A DNA stretch of 21,078 bases from a virus. Below are positions 2,914 to 20,851 of the stretch, one piece after another. The first letter of the stretch is position 1; each line of letters opens with the position of its first letter. The stretch spans positions 1-21,078 of IMG/VR virus record IMGVR_UViG_3300027985_000221; one strand, 5' to 3'. A program made the position numbers and the translations under genes. The notes beneath the pieces were generated by a model. That model was given only the letters and a program-made list of their open reading frames with translations. It made no database searches and had not been told where the DNA came from.

Positions 2914-3594
2914 ATGGCAGAAAAAAATGCGTATCGCCCGTCAGTAGATTGGGACGCGATGGAGCCCGACTGGCGCGCCGGCGTTATTTCTGTGAAAGCC
3001 CTGTCCGAGCAATACGGCGTTTCAAGGGCGGCCATCCTCAAGCATTGGGGCAAGGCCGGCGTCGAGCGCGACCTTTCCGCGAAGATTCATGCCAAGGCGG
3101 ATTCACTGGTTACACAGCAGGCGGTTACACCCGAGGTTACACAAGAGCGACGTGTAACCGAGAAACGCATCATCGACGCCAACGCCACGATGTTGGCCGA
3201 CAAGGTGCTTGGCCAGCGTACGGACGTGGCCAGGGCGCGGGCGACCGTGCAGCGACTTTGGGCGATTGTCGATGCTGAACTGGATTCCCCGGAAGAACTC
3301 GAGCAGTTGGGCAAGATGATGCGGAGCCCGGATGCGTTTGGCCAGGACCGGCTCAACGATATGTACCTGGCGGCGGTGGCCATCCCGCAGCAGGTTAAAA
3401 ACGTGAAGCTGTTGTGTGACTCGCTCAAAACGTTGATTGAGTTGGAGCGCAAGGTTCTCAAACTGGACACGCTGGCCGAGATGGACGAGGACGCGGCAAA
3501 GAAAGCGGGCGAGGATGCCGGACGGGCGGTGGCGGCGGGAGTGGATGCGGCGATGTCGGCGCTTGCGGAGAAGCTGAACGCACACCGGGCATGA
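2914..3594 (+). CDS. Terminase small subunit
   Basis: The 226-residue product has the layout of phage small terminases. Residues 12-23 (DWDAMEPDWRAG) lead into a helix-turn-helix at about 25-46 (ISVKALSEQYGVSRAAILKHW), the expected DNA-recognition domain. A long helical oligomerisation region follows, with an Ala-rich tail. It lies directly before the large subunit, whose ATG begins four bases before its stop (ATGA). AAAGAGG lies just upstream of the start. Small subunits recognise the packaging site on concatemeric DNA and deliver it to the ATPase/nuclease. The recognition site itself was not identified here. The call rests on the helix-turn-helix, length and neighbour. Confidence 0.8.
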   Translation: MAEKNAYRPSVDWDAMEPDWRAGVISVKALSEQYGVSRAAILKHWGKAGVERDLSAKIHAKADSLVTQQAVTPEVTQERRVTEKRIIDANATMLADKVLGQRTDVARARATVQRLWAIVDAELDSPEELEQLGKMMRSPDAFGQDRLNDMYLAAVAIPQQVKNVKLLCDSLKTLIELERKVLKLDTLAEMDEDAAKKAGEDAGRAVAAGVDAAMSALAEKLNAHRA

Positions 3595-5210
3595 TCGGCC
3601 TGAATGAAGAACTCGCAGCGGCCGTCCAGGCGGCGGCGACGATTGCGGAGGTTGAAGAGTGGTGGCGGCTGATCCGGACGTGCTTCGGCAACGAGGGGGT
3701 GCGCTGGCTCGGTCGCAATGACCGGTTCTTCCTGCTAACGGTTCTCCTGCACCGCAAGGATGCGTTTCATCCGTGGCTCTATGCCCGGTGCCGCGAGGTC
3801 GAGGCTGATCCTGACGACCATCTCGACTTATGGGCTCGGGAACACTACAAATCGACCATCATCACCTTCGCCGGGATCATTCAGGAGATTGTTCGCAACC
3901 CGGAAATCACCATCGGCATCTTCTCGCATACGAAGCCGGTGGCGCGAAAGTTCCTCATCCAGATCAAGACGGAACTGGAAACGAACGAAGACCTCGTTCA
4001 TACCTACCCTGACATCTTCTACGCGGAGCCGAAGAAGGACGCGCTCAAGTGGTCCGAGGAAAATGGCATCACGGTTATTCGTCAGAGCAACCCCAAGGAG
4101 GCGACGGTAGAGGCGCATGGCCTAGTCGACGGCCAGCCTATCGGCGCCCACTTCCTGTTGCGCGTCTATGATGACGTGGTTACTCAGACCTCCGTGGGGA
4201 CGCCAGAGCAGGTTTCCAAGACAACGACGGCATGGGAGCTTTCCGACAACCTGGGCGCCCGCGGCGAGGACGGGAAAAGCCGGCGCTGGCATATCGGGAC
4301 GCGCTACAGCTTCGCGGACACGTACCAGGCCATCATCGAGAAGGGTGTACTCAAGCTGCGGATCTACCCTGCCACGGAAGACGGGACTGTTGATGGAAGG
4401 CCGGTGTTCCTGCCGCAAGCGGTGTGGGAAGAAAAGATTCGCACGCAGGGGCTCGGGGTGCTGGCCGCGCAAATGCTGCAAAACCCGGCGGCCGGCGCTC
4501 AGGCCATGTTCAAGAAGGACTGGCTGCGCTTTGCCGATGTCCGACCGGCCACGCTGAACGTCTACATCCTAGCTGACCCGGCCAGCAGCCGGAAGAAGGG
4601 CAGCGACCGCACGGCCATTGCGGTGATCGGCATCGACGCCGCGGGGAACAAGTACCTGTTGGACGGCTATCACCATCGAATGAGTCTGTCCGAACGGTGG
4701 GCGGCGCTGTCAGGGCTCCGGAAGGTCTGGATAAATGCGCCAGGGGTGCAGTTGGTCAAGGTGGGTTACGAACGTTACGGCAGCACCAGCGACCTCGAAT
4801 ACTTCACGGAGCGCATGGAGCGTGCGCGCGACGAGTGGGAAATCCACGAGTTGGCATGGCCGAAGGACGGCACGGCCAGCAAGTACGACCGAATCCAGCG
4901 CCTCGAGCCGGATTTCCGGGCCGGCACGTTCTATCTGGCCGCCGTAACGCAGGGCATCACCAAAAACCAGCAGCGCGTGATCGACCTGGGGCAGAAGTAC
5001 CGGATTTTCTCGCCGGTGAAGCGCGCCGACGAGGGAAAGACCCTCTATGCGCTGAACAAGACGTTGCTTGATGAGTACCTCGTCTATCCGTTCTCGGTGC
5101 ATGACGATTTCCTCGATGCCTGCTCACGGATCTACGACATCGACGCCGAGCGGCCGATTCTGATCGATGAGCGGATGCTCGAACCGCAAACCTACGCTGA
5201 TGGAGCATGA
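3591..5210 (+). CDS. Terminase large subunit (packaging ATPase and nuclease)
   Basis: The 539-residue length is normal for the family. The N-terminal ATPase has a deviant Walker A at 81-90 (WAREHYKSTI) and a Walker B at 187-195 (HFLLRVYDD); WHIGTRYSFADTY at 233-245 is a likely coupling region. The C-terminal RNase H-like nuclease shows D329 in YILADPASS, the GSDRTAIAVIGID strand, E394 in VGYERYG, and HDDFLDA at 504-510. Together these catalytic features make the call secure. The protein translocates DNA into the prohead and cuts it. It is translationally coupled to the small subunit. No cos or pac site could be recognised. Confidence 0.95.
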   Translation: MIGLNEELAAAVQAAATIAEVEEWWRLIRTCFGNEGVRWLGRNDRFFLLTVLLHRKDAFHPWLYARCREVEADPDDHLDLWAREHYKSTIITFAGIIQEIVRNPEITIGIFSHTKPVARKFLIQIKTELETNEDLVHTYPDIFYAEPKKDALKWSEENGITVIRQSNPKEATVEAHGLVDGQPIGAHFLLRVYDDVVTQTSVGTPEQVSKTTTAWELSDNLGARGEDGKSRRWHIGTRYSFADTYQAIIEKGVLKLRIYPATEDGTVDGRPVFLPQAVWEEKIRTQGLGVLAAQMLQNPAAGAQAMFKKDWLRFADVRPATLNVYILADPASSRKKGSDRTAIAVIGIDAAGNKYLLDGYHHRMSLSERWAALSGLRKVWINAPGVQLVKVGYERYGSTSDLEYFTERMERARDEWEIHELAWPKDGTASKYDRIQRLEPDFRAGTFYLAAVTQGITKNQQRVIDLGQKYRIFSPVKRADEGKTLYALNKTLLDEYLVYPFSVHDDFLDACSRIYDIDAERPILIDERMLEPQTYADGA

Positions 5211-5211
5211 C

Positions 5212-5397
5212 ATGGCGACGACAGACCAAACCCCGCTGACCAGCACGCGCCTCTGGTCAGAGGAAGTCGGCATTGCCGAGGCGAATAGCCCGTTGAGCGC
5301 CATCGACCCGAGCCGTGAACCCGGCTATCGGTTCTCGAACGGCAGCACGTTCAACAGCGGCTTGGGGCCGTATGCACCTGTTGCCAACCCTGACTGA
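5212..5397 (+). CDS. Small hypothetical protein after terminase (61 aa)
   Basis: The frame is open from further upstream, but ATG 5212 has GGAG at 5202-5205 at good spacing and begins just past the terminase stop; ATG 5200 is the alternative. The product is hydrophilic, with a Gly/Pro/Asn/Ser-rich C-terminal half (GSTFNSGLGPYAPVANP) that looks unstructured. It has no recognised motif. It is the first of four very small genes between terminase and portal and overlaps the next by 26 bases. Small structural or regulatory role possible; unknown. Confidence 0.5.
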   Translation: MATTDQTPLTSTRLWSEEVGIAEANSPLSAIDPSREPGYRFSNGSTFNSGLGPYAPVANPD

Positions 5398-5539
5398 CGC
5401 ACTGGCTACCGCGGAGCAGGACGACTACACGCTCCTTCCCGAGCCGATCAAATGTTTTTTAACCCGAGACGAGTTTTTGTGGCTGACCGACAGCCAGAAA
5501 GCCTCGCTCATCCAGCAGGAGTGTGAGCCGGAATGGTGA
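5372..5539 (+). CDS. Small hypothetical protein (55 aa)
   Basis: ATG 5372 follows GGGGC and is preferred over the in-frame ATG 5315, which would overlap the previous gene deeply. The 55-residue product is acidic and contains LTRDEFLWLTDSQKASLIQQ, a helical segment with the look of small phage head-module proteins I have seen but cannot name. It overlaps the gene before by 26 bases and the helix-turn-helix gene after by seven (ATGGTGA). Function unknown. Confidence 0.5.
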   Translation: MHLLPTLTDALATAEQDDYTLLPEPIKCFLTRDEFLWLTDSQKASLIQQECEPEW

Positions 5540-5700
5540 TTCGCGCATGTGACATGGACACGGCTTTGAAGATGTTCCGTGAAGGAAAGAGCAAGGCTGA
5601 CATCGGCAAGGCGCTTGGCAAGGACAAGAAGGCTGTGACAAAAATCCTCGCCCGCGCCATCAACAGCAGCAGCGGGAGAAGTGCAAATGGGGCTGATTGA
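5533..5700 (+). CDS. Small helix-turn-helix protein (55 aa)
   Basis: A 55-codon frame from ATG 5533 to TGA 5700 encodes a single predicted helix-turn-helix: ALKMFREGKSKADIGKAL followed by a basic turn and AVTKILARAIN. The pattern (short helix, G-K-S, I-G-x-A-L-G, then a recognition helix) is that of homeodomain-like or resolvase-type DNA-binding helices. It overlaps the stop of the preceding gene by seven bases, and its own 3' end overlaps the next gene. It could be a regulator of late transcription or a packaging accessory; this is inference. Its position just after terminase makes a DNA-packaging role worth considering. Confidence 0.6.
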   Translation: MVIRACDMDTALKMFREGKSKADIGKALGKDKKAVTKILARAINSSSGRSANGAD

Positions 5701-6040
5701 CATCTCGGGTGAGTCGCCGAAGGTGGCGGCGCTTGATTTCAACATGGCCAAGGATATGGCCGAAACACTGTACGAGGCGTATCCAGATCATGCTTGGGCG
5801 GTGACGTGCGAGGGGAAGAAGGGCATTGCCACGGTGCGAAACATGTCGCTGGCTGGCAATTGGGGCTTTGTCCTGCACCTGAAAACCCTGTCGTCAGCGT
5901 CGGACTGGAAGAAACGGATTGTGATGGCCGGAGGCGAACTGCTCGAGCGATTCCGCTTGCGACGAGGCGCGGCGAATCAGGACGCCATCGCCGGCTTGGA
6001 GATGAACCGGTTTGGCCGGGTGATTGGAGATTATTCGTAA
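5687..6040 (+). CDS. Hypothetical protein between terminase and portal (117 aa)
   Basis: ATG 5687 has GGGAGA at 5674-5679, seven bases upstream; a GTG at 5681 would add two residues. The product has a mixed alpha/beta pattern (DHAWAVTCEGKKGIATVRN, then WGFVLHLKTL) and ends in a basic helix with MNRFGRVIGDYS. It overlaps the helix-turn-helix gene by 14 bases, and its stop overlaps the portal start (TAATG). I recall similar proteins next to portal genes in podovirus-like phages but no assigned function. A head or packaging accessory role is inferred from position only. Confidence 0.6.
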   Translation: MGLIDISGESPKVAALDFNMAKDMAETLYEAYPDHAWAVTCEGKKGIATVRNMSLAGNWGFVLHLKTLSSASDWKKRIVMAGGELLERFRLRRGAANQDAIAGLEMNRFGRVIGDYS

Positions 6041-8178
6041 TGGACATGATGACCGAGGATGTTGCTGTTTCGGAAGAGGCGGAAGAGCCGCAGGAACAGG
6101 CAATGGATGGCGAACTAGCGCTGGAACTTGCCAGAGAGGCGTATCACTCCAGCACGGACTACTTCGACGCGAATATACGGAGCGACGTGGAGCGAGACAT
6201 TCGGCGCTTCCAGTCACGGTTCCCGACCGACTCGAAGTACGTGAGCGATGCCTACCGCTCACGTTCGCGCATCTTCCGGCCAAAGACGCGCGGAACGATC
6301 CGCAAGAACGAGGCGGTGGCAGCCGAGGCGATGTTTTCGACACTGGACATCGTGAGCGTGAGCCCGGCGGAAGAATCGAACCTCGCGCAATCAGCCTCCG
6401 CTGATGTCATGTCGGCTCTGATGCAATACCGCCTGACAAAAAGCATTCCGTGGTTCCTGACGTGCGTTGGCGCCTATCAGGACGCACAGGTGACTGGGGT
6501 GGTGATTTCTCACCAATACTGGGAATTCAACCCGCGCAAGGGAATTGACAAACCGCGCATCGAGTTGATTCCCATCGAGAACTTCCGCTTTGACCCGGCC
6601 GCCAGTTGGGCCGACCCGGTAAATACTAGCCCTTACCTCATCAACATGATTCCGATGCGGGTCAAGGACATCAAGAGCCGCATGAAGTCGGGGCGCTGGA
6701 AGACCTATTCCGACGCGGAAATCCTCTCGGCGCTGAAGAAGCAGGGCGACACCACGCGCATGGAGCGTGACGGGAACCGTGTGGATGCCACGGAAAACCG
6801 CATGGCCATCGGGAGCTATACGGTGGTTTGGGTGCATCAGAACATCGTGGAGCATGACGACAAGGACTATATTTTCTACACGCTCGGGACGGAAATCCTG
6901 CTATCCGATCCGACTCCACTGGTTAACGAGTATGCCCACGGCCGCCGGCCGTTCGCGCTGGGTATTTGTGTTCTCGAGACGCACAAGGTCTATCCATCAG
7001 GAGTCTCGCGCATCGGGGCGCAGATCCAGGACGAAATCAACGAGGTAACGAACCAGCGGCTGGATAACGTCAAGTTCGCTATGAACAAGCGGTATTTCGT
7101 CAAGCGCAACAAACAGGTGGATCTACGCAGCCTGACCAGAAATGTGCCGTCATCGGTGACGTTGCTCACGGACCCGAACGAGGACGTGAAGATTGTCGAG
7201 ACGAACGACGTGACAAGCTCGAGCTACAACGAGCAGGACCGCTTGAACCTTGATTACGACGACGTGGCCGGTGTGTTCTCTGGCTCGAGCGTTGCCGCCA
7301 ACCGCAAACTGAACGAAACCGTGGGCGGAATGAACATCCTGACCGGGAACGCCAATCAGGTATCCGCGTATCAACTGAAAACCTTCGTGGAAACGTGGGT
7401 GGAGCCGGTTCTTCGGCAACTGATGTTGCTTGAGCAACACTACGAGACTGATGAGGTGATTCTGGCGCTGTGTTCCAAGAAGGCCGCGCTGTTCCAGCGG
7501 TTCGGGATGGATGCGGTAACGGATGAGTTGCTGTCGCAGGAATTAACCCTCTCGGTGAATATAGGCATGTCGGCCACAAGCCCGACAGAGAAGATCAACG
7601 GACTGGCAACGGCAATGGGAACAATCCGCACCGTGCTGGCCGATGGCCTGCTCGAGAAGTACGGATTGCAGCCGCAGTCGCTCATCAAGGAAATTCTCGG
7701 CGCCATCGGTCACAAGGACGGCGGGCGCTTCTTCGACTTCGATACCGAGCAGGATCCGCGCATCCAGTCGCTTATGCAGCAGATTCAGGAGTTGCAGGCC
7801 GCGCTGGACGCCAAGCACCCGCCGGAAGTGATTGCGGCGCAAGTGCGCAAGCTGGACGAGGAAGCAAAGAAGGTTGCCGCCGATCGCGTCAAGTCTGGAG
7901 TCGAAGGCGCCTATTCGGCGATGCAGGCCGCGCAGGTAGTCGCCACCATGCCGCAAGTCTCGCCGATCGCCGATGCGGTGATGCAGATTGCCGGGTACAC
8001 ACCCCCGAATCCTGTCGGGGTTGATCCGAACATCCCGCAGCCAGCGCAGGCGGTCGCGCCACAGGTGGACTTCCCGCAGGGCGCGGACCCGCTCAATCCT
8101 GCCGAGCCAGCCAGCCCCTTTGTCGGAGAACAGGCCGGCATTGAAACCCAACGTCCTGATGGAGTGATTTCCGAATGA
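6040..8178 (+). CDS. Portal protein
   Basis: The product is 712 residues from ATG 6040. The frame remains open to 5794, but that extension overlaps the previous gene out of frame, and GGAGA at 6026-6030 supports 6040. Portal features include an acidic N-terminal tail, SRSRIFRPKTRGTIRKNEA (clip/stem entry region), a large alpha/beta core, and HKVYPSGVSRIGAQIQDEIN followed by long helical segments typical of crown and stem. The C-terminus is Ala/Gln/Pro-rich and likely flexible. Size fits the larger podovirus-type portals. The protein forms the dodecameric ring at the capsid vertex through which terminase pumps DNA. Position between terminase and scaffold confirms the role. Confidence 0.88.
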   Translation: MDMMTEDVAVSEEAEEPQEQAMDGELALELAREAYHSSTDYFDANIRSDVERDIRRFQSRFPTDSKYVSDAYRSRSRIFRPKTRGTIRKNEAVAAEAMFSTLDIVSVSPAEESNLAQSASADVMSALMQYRLTKSIPWFLTCVGAYQDAQVTGVVISHQYWEFNPRKGIDKPRIELIPIENFRFDPAASWADPVNTSPYLINMIPMRVKDIKSRMKSGRWKTYSDAEILSALKKQGDTTRMERDGNRVDATENRMAIGSYTVVWVHQNIVEHDDKDYIFYTLGTEILLSDPTPLVNEYAHGRRPFALGICVLETHKVYPSGVSRIGAQIQDEINEVTNQRLDNVKFAMNKRYFVKRNKQVDLRSLTRNVPSSVTLLTDPNEDVKIVETNDVTSSSYNEQDRLNLDYDDVAGVFSGSSVAANRKLNETVGGMNILTGNANQVSAYQLKTFVETWVEPVLRQLMLLEQHYETDEVILALCSKKAALFQRFGMDAVTDELLSQELTLSVNIGMSATSPTEKINGLATAMGTIRTVLADGLLEKYGLQPQSLIKEILGAIGHKDGGRFFDFDTEQDPRIQSLMQQIQELQAALDAKHPPEVIAAQVRKLDEEAKKVAADRVKSGVEGAYSAMQAAQVVATMPQVSPIADAVMQIAGYTPPNPVGVDPNIPQPAQAVAPQVDFPQGADPLNPAEPASPFVGEQAGIETQRPDGVISE

Positions 8179-9654: not shown

Positions 9655-10599
9655 ATGGCCGGGCAATTGTGGGTAACGAACACTCTCGGCGGGTACATGT
9701 ACTCGGACAACCTGTCGAAAGTGCTGCGCCAGTCGGTTCAACCGCTGGTCAAATTCCGTCAGTTCGCTGACGTCAAGGACGCCGCCGTCCAGGGCAAGGG
9801 CAAGGGGCAGGAGTTCCACTGGAACGTCTACAGCGACGTGGCGACTCAAGGCACGGTCCTGACGGAAACGTCGACCATGCCGGAAACCAACTTCACCATC
9901 ACGCAGGGAACGATGACCATTACCGAATACGGTAACTCGGTCCCGTACAGCGAGAAGCTGGACAACCTGTCCGAGCATCCGGTAAAGGAAGTCATCAACA
10001 AGGTTTTGAAGAACGACGCGAAGAAGGCGTTCGACATCGGCGCCCATGCCGAATTCAACAAGACCAAACTGGTTGTCTATCCGACCGGCGGCACCAGCAC
10101 CACGGCCATTACGTTGTCGACGACCGGCACCGCGGCCGGCACCAATACCGGTGTGGCGCTGACCAAGGAACACGTCAAGAAGATTGTCACGCTGATGAAG
10201 GAGCGGAACATTCCGCCCTACGAAGCCGATGACTACTTCTCGATCGGCCACCCGTCGACCTACGACGCACTCAAGGATCAGTTGGAGCAGGTCCATCAGT
10301 ATGTTCCGCAAGGCTTCCAAGCCATCATCAACGGCGAATTCGGCCGCTACAACGGGGTTCGCTTCGTTGAGCAAACCAACATCGCCAAGGCGGCCTGGGG
10401 TGGCGGTAACACGAACTGGGCGTTCTTCTTTGGCAACGATACCGTGGCCGAGGGCGTCGTTGTTCCCGAAGAAATGCGCGGGAAGATCCCGACCGACTTC
10501 GGCCGAAGCCGCGGGGTGGCGTGGTACTACATGGGCGGCTTCGGCATCGTCCATGCGGCGGCCGATCAATCCCGCATCGTGAAGTGGGGCTCGACCTAA
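9655..10599 (+). CDS. Major capsid protein (N4 gp56-type, HK97 fold)
   Basis: A near-perfect AAAGGAGG at 9641-9648 precedes ATG 9655, as expected for the most abundant virion protein. The 314 residues run from an N-terminal arm (LSKVLRQSVQPLVKFRQFAD) through QGKGKGQEFHWNVYSDV to SVPYSEKLDNLSEHPVKEV. A long stretch follows with FSIGHPSTYDALKDQLEQV, and near the end RGVAWYYMGGFGIVH. These features and the length match the N4 gp56-like major capsid family as I know it. The protein forms the icosahedral shell around the scaffold. It is flanked by the scaffold gene and an intrinsic terminator. Confidence 0.88.
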   Translation: MAGQLWVTNTLGGYMYSDNLSKVLRQSVQPLVKFRQFADVKDAAVQGKGKGQEFHWNVYSDVATQGTVLTETSTMPETNFTITQGTMTITEYGNSVPYSEKLDNLSEHPVKEVINKVLKNDAKKAFDIGAHAEFNKTKLVVYPTGGTSTTAITLSTTGTAAGTNTGVALTKEHVKKIVTLMKERNIPPYEADDYFSIGHPSTYDALKDQLEQVHQYVPQGFQAIINGEFGRYNGVRFVEQTNIAKAAWGGGNTNWAFFFGNDTVAEGVVVPEEMRGKIPTDFGRSRGVAWYYMGGFGIVHAAADQSRIVKWGST

Positions 10600-10638: not shown

Positions 10639-10674
10639 GATTGACGCATGAATCGAGCGAACGGGAGGCGGGTA

Positions 10675-10902
10675 ATGGACGGAATTAGTTACAAGCGCGG
10701 AGCGAACGCCTTGAATGGGTCGTTGGGCGGCCTTTCTGAAAGCGCGTTGATTAGCGGGTTCGACGACGTTACGCCGCAAAAACTCGATCCGTTGGACGCG
10801 AGCTATCAGCGCCAGGACGACGACGGGAGCAATTACGTCGGGGATCGCTGGGAGTTTCGCAAGACAGGTGCCTGTGGGCGACCGCAGGGCGAAGAGCGCT
10901 GA
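10675..10902 (+). CDS. Small hypothetical protein after capsid gene (75 aa)
   Basis: ATG 10675 has GGGAGG at 10663-10668 with six-base spacing, so it is chosen over the in-frame ATG at 10648, which has no ribosome site. The product is hydrophilic, Gly/Asp/Ser-rich (MDGISYKRGANALNGSLGG, later YQRQDDDGSNYVGDRWEF) and has no membrane segment. It is the first gene after the capsid terminator. No family is recognised. Head decoration or small virion protein is a guess from position. Confidence 0.55.
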   Translation: MDGISYKRGANALNGSLGGLSESALISGFDDVTPQKLDPLDASYQRQDDDGSNYVGDRWEFRKTGACGRPQGEER

Positions 10903-10916
10903 ACAAGGAGCGAAGT

Positions 10917-11132
10917 ATGGGCAAATTCAACGAACGGCCAGATGGAACCGGTGTGGTGCAGGGCGATAGCCGACCGATGCCTGACCGTGGTACTGGCGCC
11001 GGATTCAACGGCAATACCTACGGCGCTGACGTGTCACAAGGCGCGACGAACAACCTGGGCCGGATCACTGGCGCGACAAAATCGCACTCCGTGGATGAGC
11101 GCCCCGGATGCAACAACCGGAAAGGATGCTGA
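10917..11132 (+). CDS. Small hypothetical Gly/Asn/Thr-rich protein (71 aa)
   Basis: AAGGAG at 10905-10910 lies six bases before ATG 10917. The product is dominated by Gly, Asn, Thr and Asp (GTGAGFNGNTYGADVSQGAT), looks unstructured, and ends with two cysteines in GCNNRKGC. It has no recognised domain. Its 3' end overlaps the following gene. The low complexity raises the possibility that it coats or decorates the capsid or is modified by the glycosyltransferase encoded two genes on; that link is speculation from proximity. Confidence 0.5.
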   Translation: MGKFNERPDGTGVVQGDSRPMPDRGTGAGFNGNTYGADVSQGATNNLGRITGATKSHSVDERPGCNNRKGC

Positions 11133-11380
11133 CCGTGGCGGAACTTGACAAGAGCAAACCGTATTTTGACGTGCATGGCGGGGCGAATGGCGCCGTGTTC
11201 GAGCAGGACGGGAAGATGTTCGACGGAGACGGAAAAGAAGTTTCCGTTTCCGCGAAAGGATCTCGCGGTAAGTCGTCGAAAGCAGCCGAATCAGCCAATG
11301 AGACTGCCGACGAGGCGGCAACAGGCGGAACGGAGACGGCCGCCGTTGATGAGCAAATTGCCGCACAAGGGGCCGCCTGA
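11126..11380 (+). CDS. Small hypothetical protein with disordered Ala/Thr/Ser tail
   Basis: Start choice is uncertain. ATG 11126 overlaps the previous stop (ATGCTGA); ATG 11108 would be six residues longer; GTG 11135 has AAAGG at 11121-11125 at better spacing. The N-terminal part AELDKSKPYFDVHGG and FEQDGKMFDGDGKEV look folded. The C-terminal 40 residues are Ser/Ala/Thr/Glu-rich and probably disordered. No family recognised. Its stop overlaps the start of the methyltransferase-glycosyltransferase gene (TGATG), so the two are translated together. Confidence 0.5.
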   Translation: MLTVAELDKSKPYFDVHGGANGAVFEQDGKMFDGDGKEVSVSAKGSRGKSSKAAESANETADEAATGGTETAAVDEQIAAQGAA

Positions 11381-12924
11381 TGACATGGCGGGCAGATGCG
11401 CCGCAAGGCAATGAAGCTGCAAAGGTGCAGTGGGATATTGTTGAATACACCCGCGGCAAGGGCTTGGACCTTGGCTGCGGGCCGAACAAGGCATTCCCGC
11501 ATTTCGTTGGCGTCGATAGCGGCAAGGACAGCGAACTCTTCGGTCTGGAGATGACGCCGGATGTCGTCGTTCCTGACGCCAGCGACTTGTCGCAGTTCGA
11601 GACGCACAGCCAAGACTTCGTTTTTTCCTCGCATCTGCTCGAACATCTGGAGGATTACGCCGCGGCACTCAAGGAGTGGTGGCGCGTGATCCGCCCCGGC
11701 GGGCATCTGGTTCTTTACCTGCCTCACAAGGATCTCTATCCGCGCATCGGCCAGCCGGGCGCGAACATTGACCACAAACACGACTTCGAGCCCGCTGACA
11801 TCAAGGCGGCGATGTACGACATTCCAGGATGGACGCTTATCGTCAACGAGGTTCGCGCTGGCGGCGACGAATACTCGTTCCTGCAAGTGTGGCAGAAGCG
11901 CCACGACGAGAAGCAGATCAATTTCGCCATGATGAACGATAAGCCGCGCAAGACAGCGTGTGTCGTGCGCTATGGCGGCTTTGGAGACATGCTGCAGGCG
12001 GCGGCCATTTTGCCGGAACTGAAACGACAGGGCTATCACGTCACGATGATGACCACGCCCCGAGGGCGGTCGGTGATAGAGCACGACCCGCACGTCGACG
12101 CCTTCTTCATTCAGGACGACAACCAAGTCCCGAATCATCTGCTGATGGACTTCTGGACGCATCAGGCCAAGCGGTTCGACAAGTTCATCAACCTGTCTGA
12201 ATCGGTAGAGGGCACCTTGTTGGCACTACCAGGCCGCGCGAATCACGCCTGGCCGCACGCCATCCGGCACAAGTACATGAACCTGAACTACAACGAATGG
12301 ACTGCAGAACTCGCCGGCGTGCCGTTCGTGCCGGAAGGGAAGTTCTATCCGAGCGAAGACGAATTACTGGATGCGGTTGCTCTGCATACGGAAGGCTTTG
12401 ACATCGTTTTCGCGCTCTCGGGTTCAAGCCAGCACAAGTTTTATCCCGGTCAGGACGCCGTGATTGCCCGTATCCTGCTGGAAATACCGGAAGCCACCGT
12501 GTTCCTCACCGGTGACGAGGCGTGCCAGATCCTTGAATGCGGTTGGGAAAATGAACCGCGTGTGCGTTTGTTGTCCGGAAAACAAACAATCCGCCAAACG
12601 CTGATGCTGGCGAGCAGTGTGCATTGCGTAATTGGACCGGAAACTGGCGTTCTCAATGCCGTGGCCTTTCTTCCGGAAGTTGCCAAGGTCTGTCTACTGT
12701 CGCATTCGTCAGCGGAAAACCTCACGAAGCATTGGGTAAACGCCACGGCCATCGAGCCAGTCGGCGTTGATTGCTATCCGTGCCACCGTCTGCACTACGG
12801 CATGGCGCATTGCCGTGAACACCTCGAGACTGGCGCCGCAATGTGCCAATTGTCAATTGATCCAGATCGTGTGATGACGCCAATTCTGGCCGCGTATGCA
12901 CACTGGAAGGAGGGGAGGGAATGA
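11380..12924 (+). CDS. Fusion of SAM methyltransferase and GT9-like glycosyltransferase
   Basis: The 514-residue product has two domains. Residues 20-175 are a class I SAM-dependent methyltransferase: GLDLGCGP at 28-35 (motif I), VGVD at 43-46, DFVFSSHLLEHL at 79-90 and RPGGHLVLYLPH at 105-116. Residues 192-514 are GT-B-like, closest to heptosyltransferase-type GT9 enzymes: VRYGGFGDMLQAAAILPEL at 196-214, SGSSQHKFYPG at 347-357, and VIGPETGVLNAVAF at 417-430, with a Cys/His cluster CYPCHRLHYGMAHC at 465-478. It lies inside the head module, coupled to the gene before and overlapping the adaptor gene after by four bases. Substrate is unknown: virion protein, phage DNA or host lipopolysaccharide are options. 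Domain calls are firm; the biological role is inference. Confidence 0.82.
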   Translation: MTWRADAPQGNEAAKVQWDIVEYTRGKGLDLGCGPNKAFPHFVGVDSGKDSELFGLEMTPDVVVPDASDLSQFETHSQDFVFSSHLLEHLEDYAAALKEWWRVIRPGGHLVLYLPHKDLYPRIGQPGANIDHKHDFEPADIKAAMYDIPGWTLIVNEVRAGGDEYSFLQVWQKRHDEKQINFAMMNDKPRKTACVVRYGGFGDMLQAAAILPELKRQGYHVTMMTTPRGRSVIEHDPHVDAFFIQDDNQVPNHLLMDFWTHQAKRFDKFINLSESVEGTLLALPGRANHAWPHAIRHKYMNLNYNEWTAELAGVPFVPEGKFYPSEDELLDAVALHTEGFDIVFALSGSSQHKFYPGQDAVIARILLEIPEATVFLTGDEACQILECGWENEPRVRLLSGKQTIRQTLMLASSVHCVIGPETGVLNAVAFLPEVAKVCLLSHSSAENLTKHWVNATAIEPVGVDCYPCHRLHYGMAHCREHLETGAAMCQLSIDPDRVMTPILAAYAHWKEGRE

Positions 12925-13577
12925 CCCTTGCCGAGTTGATCCGCGCGTTCCGTGATGAAATCAAGGACAACATCAAGCCGTATCTAGTCAGCGACGAGGC
13001 GGCGCAGCGCTATGCCAACCAGGCACAAATCGAGGCGGCCCGCCGGGCGCGACTGCTGGTTGATTCCAGTAGTGACCTGTGCCGAATCGACTATTCGGCG
13101 GGCGAGCCAGTCATCGATACCGATCGACGCATCGTCTCGTTGCGCCGCGTGCGCATCGAGACGCTATCCGCTCCGTTGCGTCTCACCAAAATCGCTGAAA
13201 TGGACGAGGAATTCTGCGGGTGGGATTTGATCGCCAGCCAGTCAACCCCGTTCATTGCCGTGGTGGATTACGGCACCGATCAATTGCGCCTCTACCCGAC
13301 TCCTAACGCTGCCGGAACACTGGCCCTGACGGTGACGCGCGAGCCGATGAACCTGCTGGAAAACGACGAAGACGAGCCGGAGATTCCGCGGCGACTGCAT
13401 GACCGGCTGATTCCGTGGATGAAGCATCGCGCGTACGCCATGCAGGATTCTGATCTTTACGACGCGAAGCAATCAGCACTGGCGCTCGCGGAGTTCGAGC
13501 AGGAATTCGGCCCGGCCATCGGTGCCATCAACGAACGCTTTGAATTCGAGAACTATCACGGCGTTGGGGAGCGATGA
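12921..13577 (+). CDS. Probable head-tail adaptor (neck) protein
   Basis: A strong AGGAGGGGAGGGA tract precedes ATG 12921, which overlaps the previous stop (ATGA). The 218-residue product starts with a helix (TLAELIRAFRDEIKD), then SDEAAQRYANQAQIEAARRA, a beta region with the repeated pattern RIVSLRRVRIET, and a C-terminal helical part, DRLIPWMKHRAYAMQDSDLY. This helix-beta-helix plan is like phage adaptor proteins of the DUF6682-like group, which attach below the portal. The assignment comes from remembered resemblance and from its place downstream of the capsid gene. It would link portal and tail in the assembled particle. Confidence 0.6.
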   Translation: MTLAELIRAFRDEIKDNIKPYLVSDEAAQRYANQAQIEAARRARLLVDSSSDLCRIDYSAGEPVIDTDRRIVSLRRVRIETLSAPLRLTKIAEMDEEFCGWDLIASQSTPFIAVVDYGTDQLRLYPTPNAAGTLALTVTREPMNLLENDEDEPEIPRRLHDRLIPWMKHRAYAMQDSDLYDAKQSALALAEFEQEFGPAIGAINERFEFENYHGVGER

Positions 13578-14196: not shown

Positions 14197-14414
14197 CGGA
14201 CGCCCAACTCCTTACCCTCTCCGCGCAGCTTGTCGCCGCCTTGTTCGGCCTACTGATCCTGATCCTCGGCTGGATGGGGAACAAACTCTCCAGCAAACTC
14301 GACTCGATGACGAGCATCTTCGACGAGATCAAACGTGAGATCCAGAAGATCGACAACCGGGTTACGCGACTTGAAGAGCGTTGCCGCTACGAACACGACG
14401 GTAAGGGTCTGTGA
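14193..14414 (+). CDS. Small membrane protein with coiled coil (lysis cassette)
   Basis: A GTG start at 14193 overlaps the previous stop (GTGA) and follows GAGGTGA at 14182-14188. The 73 residues contain one hydrophobic segment at about 8-29 (TLSAQLVAALFGLLILILGW), then a charged coiled coil at about 31-64 ending in RVTRLEERC. The size and position beside holin and endolysin candidates recall XhlA/hemolysin-type lysis accessory proteins or small holins, although XhlA normally has its membrane segment at the other end. It probably sits in the inner membrane with the coiled coil on one side. Lysis accessory or second holin is the favoured role. Confidence 0.65.
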   Translation: MTDAQLLTLSAQLVAALFGLLILILGWMGNKLSSKLDSMTSIFDEIKREIQKIDNRVTRLEERCRYEHDGKGL

Positions 14415-14833
14415 TGGCAAAGGTCGACTTCCTCCTTCTCCGCTCGACGTTCGCCGACGAGTTCACCCTCGGTACCCTGTTCTACGGTGACTGGTTTCTC
14501 GGATACACCTGCGAGGACAAGGATCGGCACCTCGAAGTCGGCGGCACGAAAGTGCCGAAGCGGACAGCGATACCGCGCGGCTACTACCGGATGACGGTCA
14601 GCATGAGCAACCGGTTCAAGAAGCTCATGCCGGAGATCAAGGACGTTCCGCAGTTCAGCGGCATCCGCATCCACGGAGGCAACACGCACGAGGACACCGA
14701 GGGCTGCCCGCTGCTCGGCGCTGTCAAGCGGCTCAACGGCGTTGGTGAGTGTAAGGAGGTCAACGCCAAGTTGATCAAGACGATTCAGGGCATCGAGGCG
14801 CAGGGCAACGAAGCCTGGATGGTGGTGCGATGA
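14414..14833 (+). CDS. DUF5675 family protein, likely endolysin candidate
   Basis: The 139-residue product shows the DUF5675 signature: TAIPRGYYRM at 51-60 and FSGIRIHGGNTHEDTEGCPL at 81-100, with H87, N90, D94 and C98. The His...Gly-Cys arrangement resembles, but is not identical to, the active site of YkuD-type L,D-transpeptidases. That suggests a cysteine-based action on peptidoglycan; this is inference. ATG 14414 overlaps the previous stop (TGATG) with AAGG upstream; a GTG at 14411 would add one residue. It has no signal peptide, so a holin would be needed for export. No classical lysozyme, amidase or M15 peptidase is present in the cassette, which makes this the best endolysin candidate. 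Confidence 0.72.
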   Translation: MAKVDFLLLRSTFADEFTLGTLFYGDWFLGYTCEDKDRHLEVGGTKVPKRTAIPRGYYRMTVSMSNRFKKLMPEIKDVPQFSGIRIHGGNTHEDTEGCPLLGAVKRLNGVGECKEVNAKLIKTIQGIEAQGNEAWMVVR

Positions 14834-15075
14834 ATTGGCTTCGCGAGGCGATCAACGACAGCAAGACGGGGCAAGCCTCGTCGAAGCGGATTATCTCGCT
14901 CGTCGGCGCCATCGCACTCTCTTTTGCCACGGTGATCCTCGCCGTCGCCGCTGTATTCGGGCAGGACGTCGCTGCTGCACTCTGGGCTTCCAGCGGGCCG
15001 CTCGCCGCGCTGGGGGGAACGAACTACGTCGGTGGGAAGCTCGCGGAAAGGTTCGGAAATGGAAGCCCTCCTTAG
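14830..15075 (+). CDS. Holin candidate with two membrane segments
   Basis: The 81-residue product begins with a charged N-terminus (MNWLREAINDSKTGQASSKR). One clear membrane segment follows at about 22-45 (IISLVGAIALSFATVILAV), then a second, weaker one at about 48-67 with ALWASSGPLAALGGTNYVGG, and a short C-terminus. Two membrane helices, small size and position between the DUF5675 protein and Rz fit a class II holin. Start and stop are coupled to the upstream gene (ATGA at 14830). The Rz start lies within its 3' end. Holins time lysis by opening the inner membrane. Confidence 0.68.
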   Translation: MNWLREAINDSKTGQASSKRIISLVGAIALSFATVILAVAAVFGQDVAAALWASSGPLAALGGTNYVGGKLAERFGNGSPP

Positions 15076-15544
15076 CCTGCTCAAGAGCTACTGGCAGACG
15101 ATCGCGTCGATTGTAGGTGGCATCGCGCTCGGGTTCTTCGCGGCGTGGCAGTTGCAGGGGCTGCGGCTCGATGCGCTGGAGTTGGATTTTGGGAAATACA
15201 GAATCGACGTAGAGCGGCAGGCGTCGGAGGCGCGACAGGCTGCATTAAAACAGAAGGCCGCATGGCTGGAGGAGAAAGAAAATGCACTCAACGCTGCACG
15301 TGAACGAGAAACGAAACTTAAGGCGGATCTGGCTGCTGCTCAGTCTTCTGCTCGCGGGCTGCGCGACGACCTCGCCGCCGCAAGTGCTCGACTGTCCGAG
15401 TCCTCCGCAGAAGCCTGTAACCGCTACGTCGGCGTTATCTCCGACGTACTCGCAGAGTGCAGCGATAGCTATAGCACGGTGGCGGGAGTCGCTGATCAGT
15501 GCGTCTCAGACGTCGCAACATTGAATGAGGCGTGGCCGAAATGA
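15059..15544 (+). CDS. Rz: Inner-membrane spanin subunit (Rz)
   Basis: The 161-residue product from ATG 15059 (GGAAAGG just upstream) has an N-terminal membrane anchor at about 13-32 (QTIASIVGGIALGFFAAW). A long Ala/Glu/Lys-rich periplasmic coiled coil follows, then a C-terminal Cys-containing domain (ACNRYVGVISDVLAECSD ... ATLNEAWP) typical of this phage Rz group. The frame opens earlier, at 15032, but that start lacks a ribosome site. The Rz1 gene is fully nested within it in another frame, which is the diagnostic spanin layout. The Rz-Rz1 complex spans the periplasm and fuses inner and outer membranes as the last lysis step in Gram-negative hosts. Confidence 0.85.
   Translation: MEALLSLLKSYWQTIASIVGGIALGFFAAWQLQGLRLDALELDFGKYRIDVERQASEARQAALKQKAAWLEEKENALNAARERETKLKADLAAAQSSARGLRDDLAAASARLSESSAEACNRYVGVISDVLAECSDSYSTVAGVADQCVSDVATLNEAWPK
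15282..15524 (+). CDS. Rz1: Outer-membrane spanin lipoprotein (Rz1), nested in Rz
   Basis: The 80-residue frame from ATG 15282 lies entirely inside Rz in a different reading frame. Its N-terminus is a lipoprotein signal: basic KRNLRR, hydrophobic IWLLLSLLL, then the lipobox LAGC with Cys27 as the lipidated residue. The mature part is Pro/Ser/Thr-rich at first (ATTSPPQVLDCPSPPQKP), as in known Rz1 proteins, and ends in a short helical stretch. The combination of lipobox, proline-rich stretch and nesting in Rz is diagnostic. The product would be anchored in the inner leaflet of the outer membrane and bind Rz across the periplasm. Confidence 0.88.
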   Translation: MHSTLHVNEKRNLRRIWLLLSLLLAGCATTSPPQVLDCPSPPQKPVTATSALSPTYSQSAAIAIARWRESLISASQTSQH

Positions 15545-19445: not shown

Positions 19446-19952
19446 ATGGCACAACGGCTAATTCCGGGGGTAGGATGGGTCGATGAGTCTGGCGTCGGAC
19501 AGTCGCTGATCCCCGGCGTCGGGTTTGTCGATGATCCGGCGTCAGGTGGCGCGACAGACGCGACCGCCTCCGGTGGCACTGGCACAGGAACCGGCTCGGG
19601 CACCGGCGGTGAAGCGACTGGCGGAACCGCTGCCGTCGATGCAACCGCAGATGGCGGCACTGGAACGGGAACTGGAACAGGTAGCGGGGGCGAGGCGGTT
19701 GGAGTGGCCTCTGGCTCTTTCACGAGCTCACCGATGTACTCGTCGGGCATCCTGCAGGTCAGCGTCGCGCTCGACTGGACCTGGTGCCCAGGTGCGATCG
19801 GAGCGGCGCCAACAGCCGCCATGGTACATGGCAGCGGCTCAACCTCGGTATCTGGCACACTGACCGCCTCCGGACTGCCGACAGGCACCGGCTTCCTGCT
19901 CGCGGAAACCGCTGACGGCGCGATCTACTACGAGGCCGGGACGGTAAGCTGA
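19446..19952 (+). CDS. Tail-associated protein with LIPGVG motifs and two Gly-rich repeats
   Basis: The 168-residue product starts with two copies of a short unit, RLIPGVGWVDE at 4-14 and SLIPGVGFVDD at 20-30, a motif I associate with phage tail fibre proteins. Two Gly/Thr-rich repeats follow at about 40-63 and 67-90 (core GGTGTGTGSGTGGEA). A folded beta-rich C-terminal domain then runs FTSSPMYSSGILQVSVALDW and ends GFLLAETADGAIYYEAGTVS. The Gly-rich units are the same family as five repeats in the next gene. The protein is probably a fibre or spike adaptor with flexible linkers. The start follows the previous stop by one base and the stop overlaps the next start (TGATG). Confidence 0.6.
   Translation: MAQRLIPGVGWVDESGVGQSLIPGVGFVDDPASGGATDATASGGTGTGTGSGTGGEATGGTAAVDATADGGTGTGTGTGSGGEAVGVASGSFTSSPMYSSGILQVSVALDWTWCPGAIGAAPTAAMVHGSGSTSVSGTLTASGLPTGTGFLLAETADGAIYYEAGTVS
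19563..19715 (+). repeat. Two Gly-rich coding repeats, first set
   Basis: Two units of about 24 codons encode xAxGGTGTGTGxGxGGEAxG. They differ at many third codon positions while the amino acids stay alike, so the repeat is kept at the protein level. They belong to the same family as the five units at 20291-20656. Confidence 0.8.
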
Positions 19953-20851
19953 TGCTCCGCAACCTCAACGCCACCTACGCCGGCAAGCGCATCCTCGCGT
20001 CGCCGTATGTCGGGGTTCTCGCGGCCACGATCGCTGCCGAGACCGCCGAGGGCGATCAGGGGCCGGGCATCCTCTACAACGAGTCAATCGATCCGGCCTA
20101 TGCCGGTAAATACCTGCGCGCCTGGATCACCAACCCGCCAACGGTCGGAACATTGCTGATCGCCGAGAACGGCGCGATTGAAGGTTACGACCTGCCGGTT
20201 GGCACGCACGTTTTCAACTACGACCTGATCGTCAATGACGCCAATGACTCCTCGTCGTCATTCACCGTCACGGTCGGCGTGGTGGATGCCGTGGCCGAAG
20301 GCGGCGTCGGGGTCGGAGCGGGGAGTGGAACAGGTGGCGAGGCTTTAGGGCAGATCGCTGGAACAGCGGACGGCGGGACCGGCAGCGGCACCGGATCGGG
20401 AACGGGCGGTGACGCTGCTGGCGAAGTATCCGCGACGGCCGAGGGCGGGGCCGGCGTTGGAACCGGGAGCGGCACGGGTGGCGATGCTATCGGTGAGGCC
20501 GGCGGCTCGGCGACAGCGATCGGCGGCACGGGAATAGGAACTGGCAGCGGAACAGGTGGGGAAGCGGCTGGAGAAATATTCGCTGTTGCCGATGGCGGTA
20601 CGGGAGCCGGAACGGGCAGTGGAACGGGGGGGAACGCGGCTGGCGTAGTTGCTGGCGTGGAAATATGGCCAAACGAATCCGACGTTCGCCTCGGCGTGAC
20701 CTACGGCCCGACCGGAGTTGAATACACCGGGACGATGGAAGCGGGAGCGGGAGCTTATCCAACCGCTGACCAGATCGCCTCAGCGGTCGATGCGGTGCTC
20801 GCGGCACGGTTCGCTTCCGTGCCCGCCGGCGTGTGGGACGAAGTGCTATGA
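19952..20851 (+). CDS. Tail-associated protein with five Gly-rich repeats
   Basis: The 299-residue product has three parts. Residues 1-112 are a beta-rich domain (LNATYAGKRILASPYVG, later EGYDLPVGTHVFNYDLIVND). Residues 114-235 are five tandem units of about 24 residues with core GTGxGTGSGTGGxAxGE. Residues 236-299 are a folded end with SDVRLGVTYGPTGVEYTGTM and PTADQIASAVDAVLAARF, a motif pair I remember from C-termini of phage tail or fibre proteins. The Gly-rich middle is likely a flexible or polyproline-II-like spacer between the two domains. ATG 19952 overlaps the previous stop; the stop overlaps the next start. Function in the particle is inferred from position and composition. Confidence 0.62.
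   Translation: MLRNLNATYAGKRILASPYVGVLAATIAAETAEGDQGPGILYNESIDPAYAGKYLRAWITNPPTVGTLLIAENGAIEGYDLPVGTHVFNYDLIVNDANDSSSSFTVTVGVVDAVAEGGVGVGAGSGTGGEALGQIAGTADGGTGSGTGSGTGGDAAGEVSATAEGGAGVGTGSGTGGDAIGEAGGSATAIGGTGIGTGSGTGGEAAGEIFAVADGGTGAGTGSGTGGNAAGVVAGVEIWPNESDVRLGVTYGPTGVEYTGTMEAGAGAYPTADQIASAVDAVLAARFASVPAGVWDEVL
20291..20656 (+). repeat. Five tandem Gly-rich coding repeats, second set
   Basis: Units begin at residues 114, 138, 162, 188 and 212 of the host gene; the third is two residues longer. The amino-acid core is highly alike while synonymous codons vary widely, including TCG in one unit and AGC or AGT in the others for the same serine. This points to conservation of the protein rather than recent DNA copying. 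Confidence 0.85.

Follow-up and report, generated by a model that had tools for sequence, protein, structure and literature searches.

The window, i.e. the whole stretch of 21,078 nucleotides analysed here (a 21-kb virus record), covers the late region of a podovirus-like phage, in which the genes are ordered TerS, TerL, SU10-type portal, scaffold-like protein, major capsid protein (MCP), three small genes, a gene that fuses a methyltransferase (MT) to a glycosyltransferase (GT), adaptor, lysis and tail genes (Table 1). The sequence-only reading had placed this fusion inside the head operon and described it as coupled to small capsid-region genes on both sides. Both points were confirmed: TerS/TerL, an SU10-type portal, an HK97-fold capsid and an SU10-type adaptor lie nearby, and the fusion gene shares 1 nt (TGATG) with the gene before it and 4 nt (ATGA) with the gene after it, and is thus start-stop coupled on both sides.

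Table 1. Coordinates of the fusion gene, its motifs and the neighbouring head genes in the window
Feature	Position	Strand	Evidence or remark
Large terminase	3591..5210	+	phrog_38 2.7e-41
SU10-type portal protein	5986..8178 (start approximate)	+	PF23899 1.9e-29
MCP, proposed acceptor	9655..10599	+	phrog_1357 6.9e-23; HK97-type capsid matches
Small head-region protein	10648..10902	+	homologues in 38 loci
Small head-region protein	10917..11132	+	homologues in 45 loci
Small head-region protein, start-stop coupled to fusion gene	11108..11380	+	homologues in 72 loci
MT-GT fusion gene, 514 aa	11380..12924	+	ATG start
Class I SAM methyltransferase domain (MT), residues 1-175	11380..11904	+	Methyltransf_11; model; PDB matches
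SAM-binding motif GLDLGCGP, residues 28-35	11461..11484	+	G32 in 96/97, G34 in 94/97 sequences
GT-B, GT9-like glycosyltransferase domain (GT), residues 188-514	11941..12921	+	Foldseek WaaF/WaaC/TibC; PF01075 in relatives
D203, equated with GT9 catalytic base (TibC Asp-110)	11986..11988	+	97/97; aligns with GD motif of 3tov and WaaF
S349-x3-K353, equated with donor-phosphate site (TibC Thr-226, Lys-230)	12424..12438	+	97/97
E421-T-G, counterpart of GT9 DSG/DTG motif	12640..12648	+	E421 97/97; aligns with WaaF NDSG
Family signature SHSSAENLTKHW, residues 441-452	12700..12735	+	S441, H442, S443, N447, W452 invariant
Four-cysteine finger C465-x2-C468-H469-x8-C478-x10-C489	12772..12846	+	Cys and H469 invariant in 97 sequences
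SU10-type head-tail adaptor, coupled downstream of fusion	12921..13577	+	PF24175 2.4e-22

The N-terminal domain gave a Methyltransf_11 match (PF08241, 1.5e-12) above the Pfam cut-off and contains, besides the SAM-binding motif, HLLEHL (residues 85-90), RPGGHLVLYLP (residues 105-115) and D46, an acidic residue that follows the second strand and is conserved together with GLDLGCGP. An AlphaFold model built with 97 homologues reached a pLDDT of 95.8 and a pTM of 0.91, indicating that both domains and their mutual packing are predicted confidently. When the model was compared with the PDB by Foldseek, the N-terminal part matched class I methyltransferases, while the GT part matched Escherichia coli WaaF (1psw, 1.1e-13) and the Veillonella GT9 protein 3tov (2.6e-13), with WaaC (5e-9) and TibC among the further top matches. 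The GT9 family PF01075 gave no match to the GT half of the window protein itself at E 0.1, and matched 21 of 37 aligned relatives (best 4.2e-10). The MT domain has the predicted Rossmann-type SAM domain, the glycine-rich motif and the acidic residue of class I SAM methyltransferases, and the modelled GT domain has a GT-B fold closest to WaaC/WaaF, so that the protein belongs to the class I methyltransferases and, by its modelled fold, to the GT9 group. The earlier description of a methyltransferase and a GT9-like enzyme joined in one 514-residue protein, with the motifs it listed, is therefore borne out by Methyltransf_11, by Foldseek, by PF01075 in relatives and by the structure prediction that it had called for.

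Elsewhere in the window, a DUF1064 protein (PF06356) is encoded at 979-1428, upstream of the packaging genes, and the likely lysis genes at 14411-15544 comprise a DUF5675 protein (PF18925), a possible holin (a short membrane protein) and an Rz-like spanin (weak PF03245). Two consecutive ORFs at 19446-20851 carry Gly/Thr/Ser-rich repeats such as GGTGTGTGSGTGGEA, and no tandem DNA repeats were detected there.

Conserved residues and comparison with known enzymes

Conservation was counted over an alignment of 97 sequences of the fusion family. Residues R197, G199, D203, S349, K353, E421, S441-H-S, N447 and W452 of the GT were invariant (97/97), and in the profile of the GT half K353 was aligned with the Lys of the WaaF motif AKRWPH. 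The residues equated with the Asp and Lys of the GT9 set are thus invariant, and DSG/DTG reads ETG, the classical GT9 Asp and His being replaced by E421 and N426. TibC, a heptosyltransferase, modifies proteins with ADP-heptose as donor; its Asp-110 has a catalytic role, and an iron finger formed by Cys 339, 342, 358 and 370 binds the metal and is required for activity (PMC4358343). From the alignments we infer that D203 and S349-x3-K353 correspond to Asp-110 and Thr-226-x3-Lys-230 of that enzyme.

The resemblance to the TibC/AAH group of bacterial autotransporter heptosyltransferases (BAHT) comprises the GT-B heptosyltransferase fold, the counterparts of the catalytic Asp and the donor Lys, and a four-Cys finger in the C-lobe, which occupies the corresponding place although its Cys spacing is shorter (x2, x9, x10, compared with x2, x15, x11 in TibC). 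In contrast, the fusion family lacks the N-terminal beta-barrel of these enzymes and has the methyltransferase in that place, and the BAHT model TIGR04414 matched it weakly (2 of 37 members, best E 0.03); the absent beta-barrel and the failed model rule out membership of the BAHT group. WaaC and WaaF are the best structural matches of the GT, and GT9 Pfam matches occur in relatives, but the fusion family differs from them in its Cys finger, its SHSSxENLTKHW signature, the fused MT, the location among phage head genes and the E found where GT9 DSG/DTG has Asp.

The two halves were not equally well kept. In one locus (L019:8001-9541) they are encoded by two genes that overlap at stop and start, L114 and L116 are GT-only members that start near the GT, and the MT is degraded in L105 and L022. 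Since the GT was intact in 97/97 sequences while the MT is split, lost or degraded in a few members, the GT is the core of the enzyme and the MT is an accessory, fused to it in most cases; methylation would accordingly not be universal across the family. In the Pseudothauera rhizosphaerae locus (L105:9998-11395), the MT half has no SAM motif and the GT half is intact.

Distribution and genomic position of the fusion

We collected 109 fused homologues, which indicates that the fusion in the window is not due to chance, and an alignment scan of IMG/VR returned at least 571 candidate relatives, the best 80 of which matched over nearly the whole protein. Judged from these matches, the enzyme is probably present, adjoining the capsid gene, in hundreds of uncultured phages and in some prophages. 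Among genome contigs, prophages or phage contigs with the fusion were found in Zoogloea, Aromatoleum, Polaromonas, Paraburkholderia, Pseudothauera, Magnetococcales, Gallionellaceae, Methylophaga and others, the host genomes being mostly Gram-negative. Apparently complete prophages occur in the cultured strains Paraburkholderia sp. C35, P. rhynchosiae WSM 3937 and Aromatoleum anaerobium LuFRes1; in all three the contig that holds the fusion also has an integrase gene ~38 kb away from it, which fits complete temperate phages. Among 50,697 catalogued phage records the fusion was not found in any isolate phage, the matches being to the MT only, and a GT-only query against the same records gave no match. 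A structure search of BFVD identified GT9-like proteins in other uncultured phages, with no full-length counterpart of the fusion among the 50 matches listed. A literature search, with subscription papers outside its scope, found no report of an MT-GT fusion or of a heptosylated capsid.

The position relative to the capsid gene was scored in 89 of the 109 fused loci, namely those in which a homologous MCP could be detected within the retrieved stretch. In every one (89/89) the MCP lay upstream of the fusion on the same strand, with a median gap of 1036 bp and 84 within 2.5 kb, thus answering the earlier suggestion to look for the same fusion beside capsid genes. A PF24175-type adaptor follows or adjoins the fusion in 51 loci. 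Lambda-type phages, whose head genes are different, likewise carry the fusion between the capsid gene and the head-tail connector: one (L015) has the order lambda-family portal, protease-capsid fusion, MT-GT, Phage_attach (head-tail attachment) and Phage_tube_2 (tail tube), and in another (L011) the capsid gene is followed by MT-GT. In L022, MT-GT lies between a GpA terminase and the portal. GT distances tracked those of the portal (Spearman 0.59) and the scaffold (0.55), head genes giving 0.57-0.67 among themselves. Isolates with close MCP relatives, the small genes and the adaptor but no fusion were also found (Vibrio phages 219E41.1 and 1.232.O; E. coli phages Bas95 and PTXU04). Close head relatives such as Bas95, PTXU04 and Vibrio 219E41.1 assemble without it, so that this head type does not require the enzyme, which is an add-on to a functional head module.

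The sequence-only reading had considered a virion protein, phage DNA and host lipopolysaccharide (LPS) as targets and favoured the first, a preference that is strengthened by the head-gene position in 89/89 loci and by the co-divergence with head genes. Modification of the LPS core in late infection or lysogeny, which would decorate lipid-linked sugars and block phage re-adsorption, agrees with WaaF and WaaC being the closest folds, with the mostly Gram-negative hosts and with the ADP-heptose genes of two phages (see below). We nevertheless consider it unlikely, because the gene sits inside the head module wherever head genes are recognisable, across two head types, is start-stop coupled to head genes in the window and co-diverges with them, and because the invariant Cys finger suggests an enzyme of the TibC type, which modifies proteins. 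Moreover, the family profile matched no host LPS enzyme in seven host genomes, indicating that the two families are well separated. Phage GT-B enzymes that glucosylate hydroxymethylated DNA are known, and a glycosylated and methylated base would be the analogous product here; this is highly improbable, as the thymidylate-synthase family, which includes the makers of hydroxymethyl bases, was present in only 1 of 19 fusion-bearing viral contigs, leading us to reject DNA hypermodification, and as the GT9 fold, the ADP-heptose links and the late head position fit it poorly.

Sugar genes, donor and acceptor

Sugar genes recurred beside the fusion. A TylF-type O-methyltransferase, of a family that takes its name from macrocin sugar O-methyltransferase, was encoded in 13 loci within ~1.2 kb upstream of the fusion, mostly abutting it. 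A GT2 gene lies upstream of MT-GT in L101, and between MCP and MT-GT another locus (L066:2269-7030) holds GT4-type enzymes, two methyltransferases, a Gfo/Idh/MocA oxidoreductase and a hexapeptide sugar acetyltransferase; this glycan cassette includes a second methyltransferase-GT4 fusion ORF (3782-5677). The contig of L069 encodes, close together (L180:9834-11218), GmhA (163-189 bits) and an HldE-type heptose-1-P adenylyltransferase (174.8 bits), which, judging from these matches, are part of the ADP-heptose pathway, and the contig of L087 encodes an HldE-type heptose-1-P adenylyltransferase (180.6 bits; L184:9808-10287), which makes two fusion-bearing phages with this gene. The L069 contig further carries an ORF (L180:2422-3276, minus strand) with a sulfotransferase-like start by eye (SYPKSGNTWVR), for which NCBIfam gave no match.

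Among the 50,697 catalogued phage records, the adenylyltransferase was matched in 59 and GmhA in 11. The heptose adenylyltransferase occurred in 2 of 50 fusion records, many of them incomplete, compared with 59/50,697 (p ~0.002), a contrast drawn across two collections with two methods, which gives no more than a hint. An IMG/VR search for close relatives of the phage adenylyltransferase returned its own contig only. The nearest isolate-phage relative of the MT domain is gp114 of cyanophage S-T4 (a Synechococcus phage, L185), which adjoins a heptose adenylyltransferase in a cluster that also contains phosphoheptose isomerase, a type 11 methyltransferase and GTs. On the basis of the fold, the finger and the pathway genes in two phages, together with the rarity of these genes in phages and the S-T4 cluster, heptose comes close to an even prospect as the donor sugar; GT9-type folds may use donors other than ADP-heptose.

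These sugar genes also bear on the role of the MT. Were it to methylate a protein side chain or another target independently of the sugar, the fusion would merely co-localise two modifications, as the separate genes of L019 and the lone GT of L114 and L116 might suggest. This seems quite unlikely, since the extra TylF-type genes at the same site suggest a sugar substrate and the nearest isolate-phage relative of the MT sits in a sugar cluster.

As the major capsid gene is the universal neighbour of the fusion, the MCP is our proposed acceptor, a choice that comes from position only and that we hold tentatively, at somewhat less than even. The MCPs of fusion-bearing phages share a Thr-rich stretch with the consensus TTNGTATxTNN, in which G158 is invariant and T159, T163 and N164 are present in at least 90%, while the Gly-Thr pair is missing there from four control MCPs of phages without the fusion, which represent only two control groups. 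In an MCP model of moderate quality (pLDDT 76.8) the stretch is mostly coil. This Thr-rich capsid loop, altered in the few relatives without the enzyme, could possibly be the acceptor site.

Modification of a virion protein other than the MCP, i.e. the small proteins, a decoration protein, the adaptor or the tail tube, is suggested by the coupling of the fusion gene to a small gene and to the adaptor, by the nearby tail tube gene of lambda-type relatives and by the Corndog enzymes, which are reported to modify both capsid and tail tube. We regard it as rather unlikely, as each of the small genes is lacking in many phages that carry the fusion, and as decoration-like proteins, the largest cluster (47 ORFs) in the corresponding interval of relatives, are absent from the window. 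The sequence-only reading had preferred Ser/Thr/Gly-rich small proteins just upstream as the target, which was not supported: their Ser/Thr share was 11-14%, similar proteins also occur where the fusion is lacking, with comparable shares at the same place in four control phages, and L083 and L093 have the fusion directly behind the capsid gene, ahead of the small genes. Lacking enrichment and absent from many fusion-bearing phages, these proteins were rejected as acceptors.

By analogy, the nearest known system is Corndog-type virion glycosylation. In mycobacteriophage Corndog (cluster O), an O-methyltransferase and GTs are encoded between the portal and protease genes; in Corndog-like phages the capsid and tail tube proteins are reported to be modified. 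Gene content and position agree in that genes for sugar and methyl transfer lie inside the structural operon, whereas Corndog has separate genes and actinobacterial hosts and the fusion is one polypeptide with a GT9-type domain. The enzyme may work like a Corndog-type virion-modifying cassette compressed into a single polypeptide with a TibC/WaaF-type sugar-transfer domain.

Setting out from the two confidently modelled folds, the invariant catalytic-type residues of the GT, its position in two head types and the recurrent sugar genes, we think it fairly probable that this phage enzyme glycosylates and methylates a virion protein. The two-domain enzyme would be made late in infection together with the head proteins; its GT would use a nucleotide sugar as donor, the likeliest being ADP-heptose from the host pool, and attach the sugar (heptose in that case) to side-chain hydroxyls of a virion protein, for which the MCP encoded by the neighbouring gene is the likeliest candidate, and the MT would afterwards O-methylate and so cap the added sugar, which might shield or stabilise the particle. 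The complete scheme, a widespread phage system in which host ADP-heptose is used to O-heptosylate the MCP during assembly and the sugar is methylated by a fused enzyme with a TibC-like metal finger, is possible but on the doubtful side. To our knowledge, few cases of virion glycosylation are known in tailed phages, most of them in mycobacteriophages, and a heptosylated capsid would, if true, be the first of its kind. The apparently complete prophages in cultured strains make a direct test feasible. If the proposal is correct, virion glycosylation would be a common trait in many phages of Gram-negative bacteria and would be tied to a host metabolite, ADP-heptose, with a bearing on the encounters of phage particles with antibodies and proteases and on their adherence.
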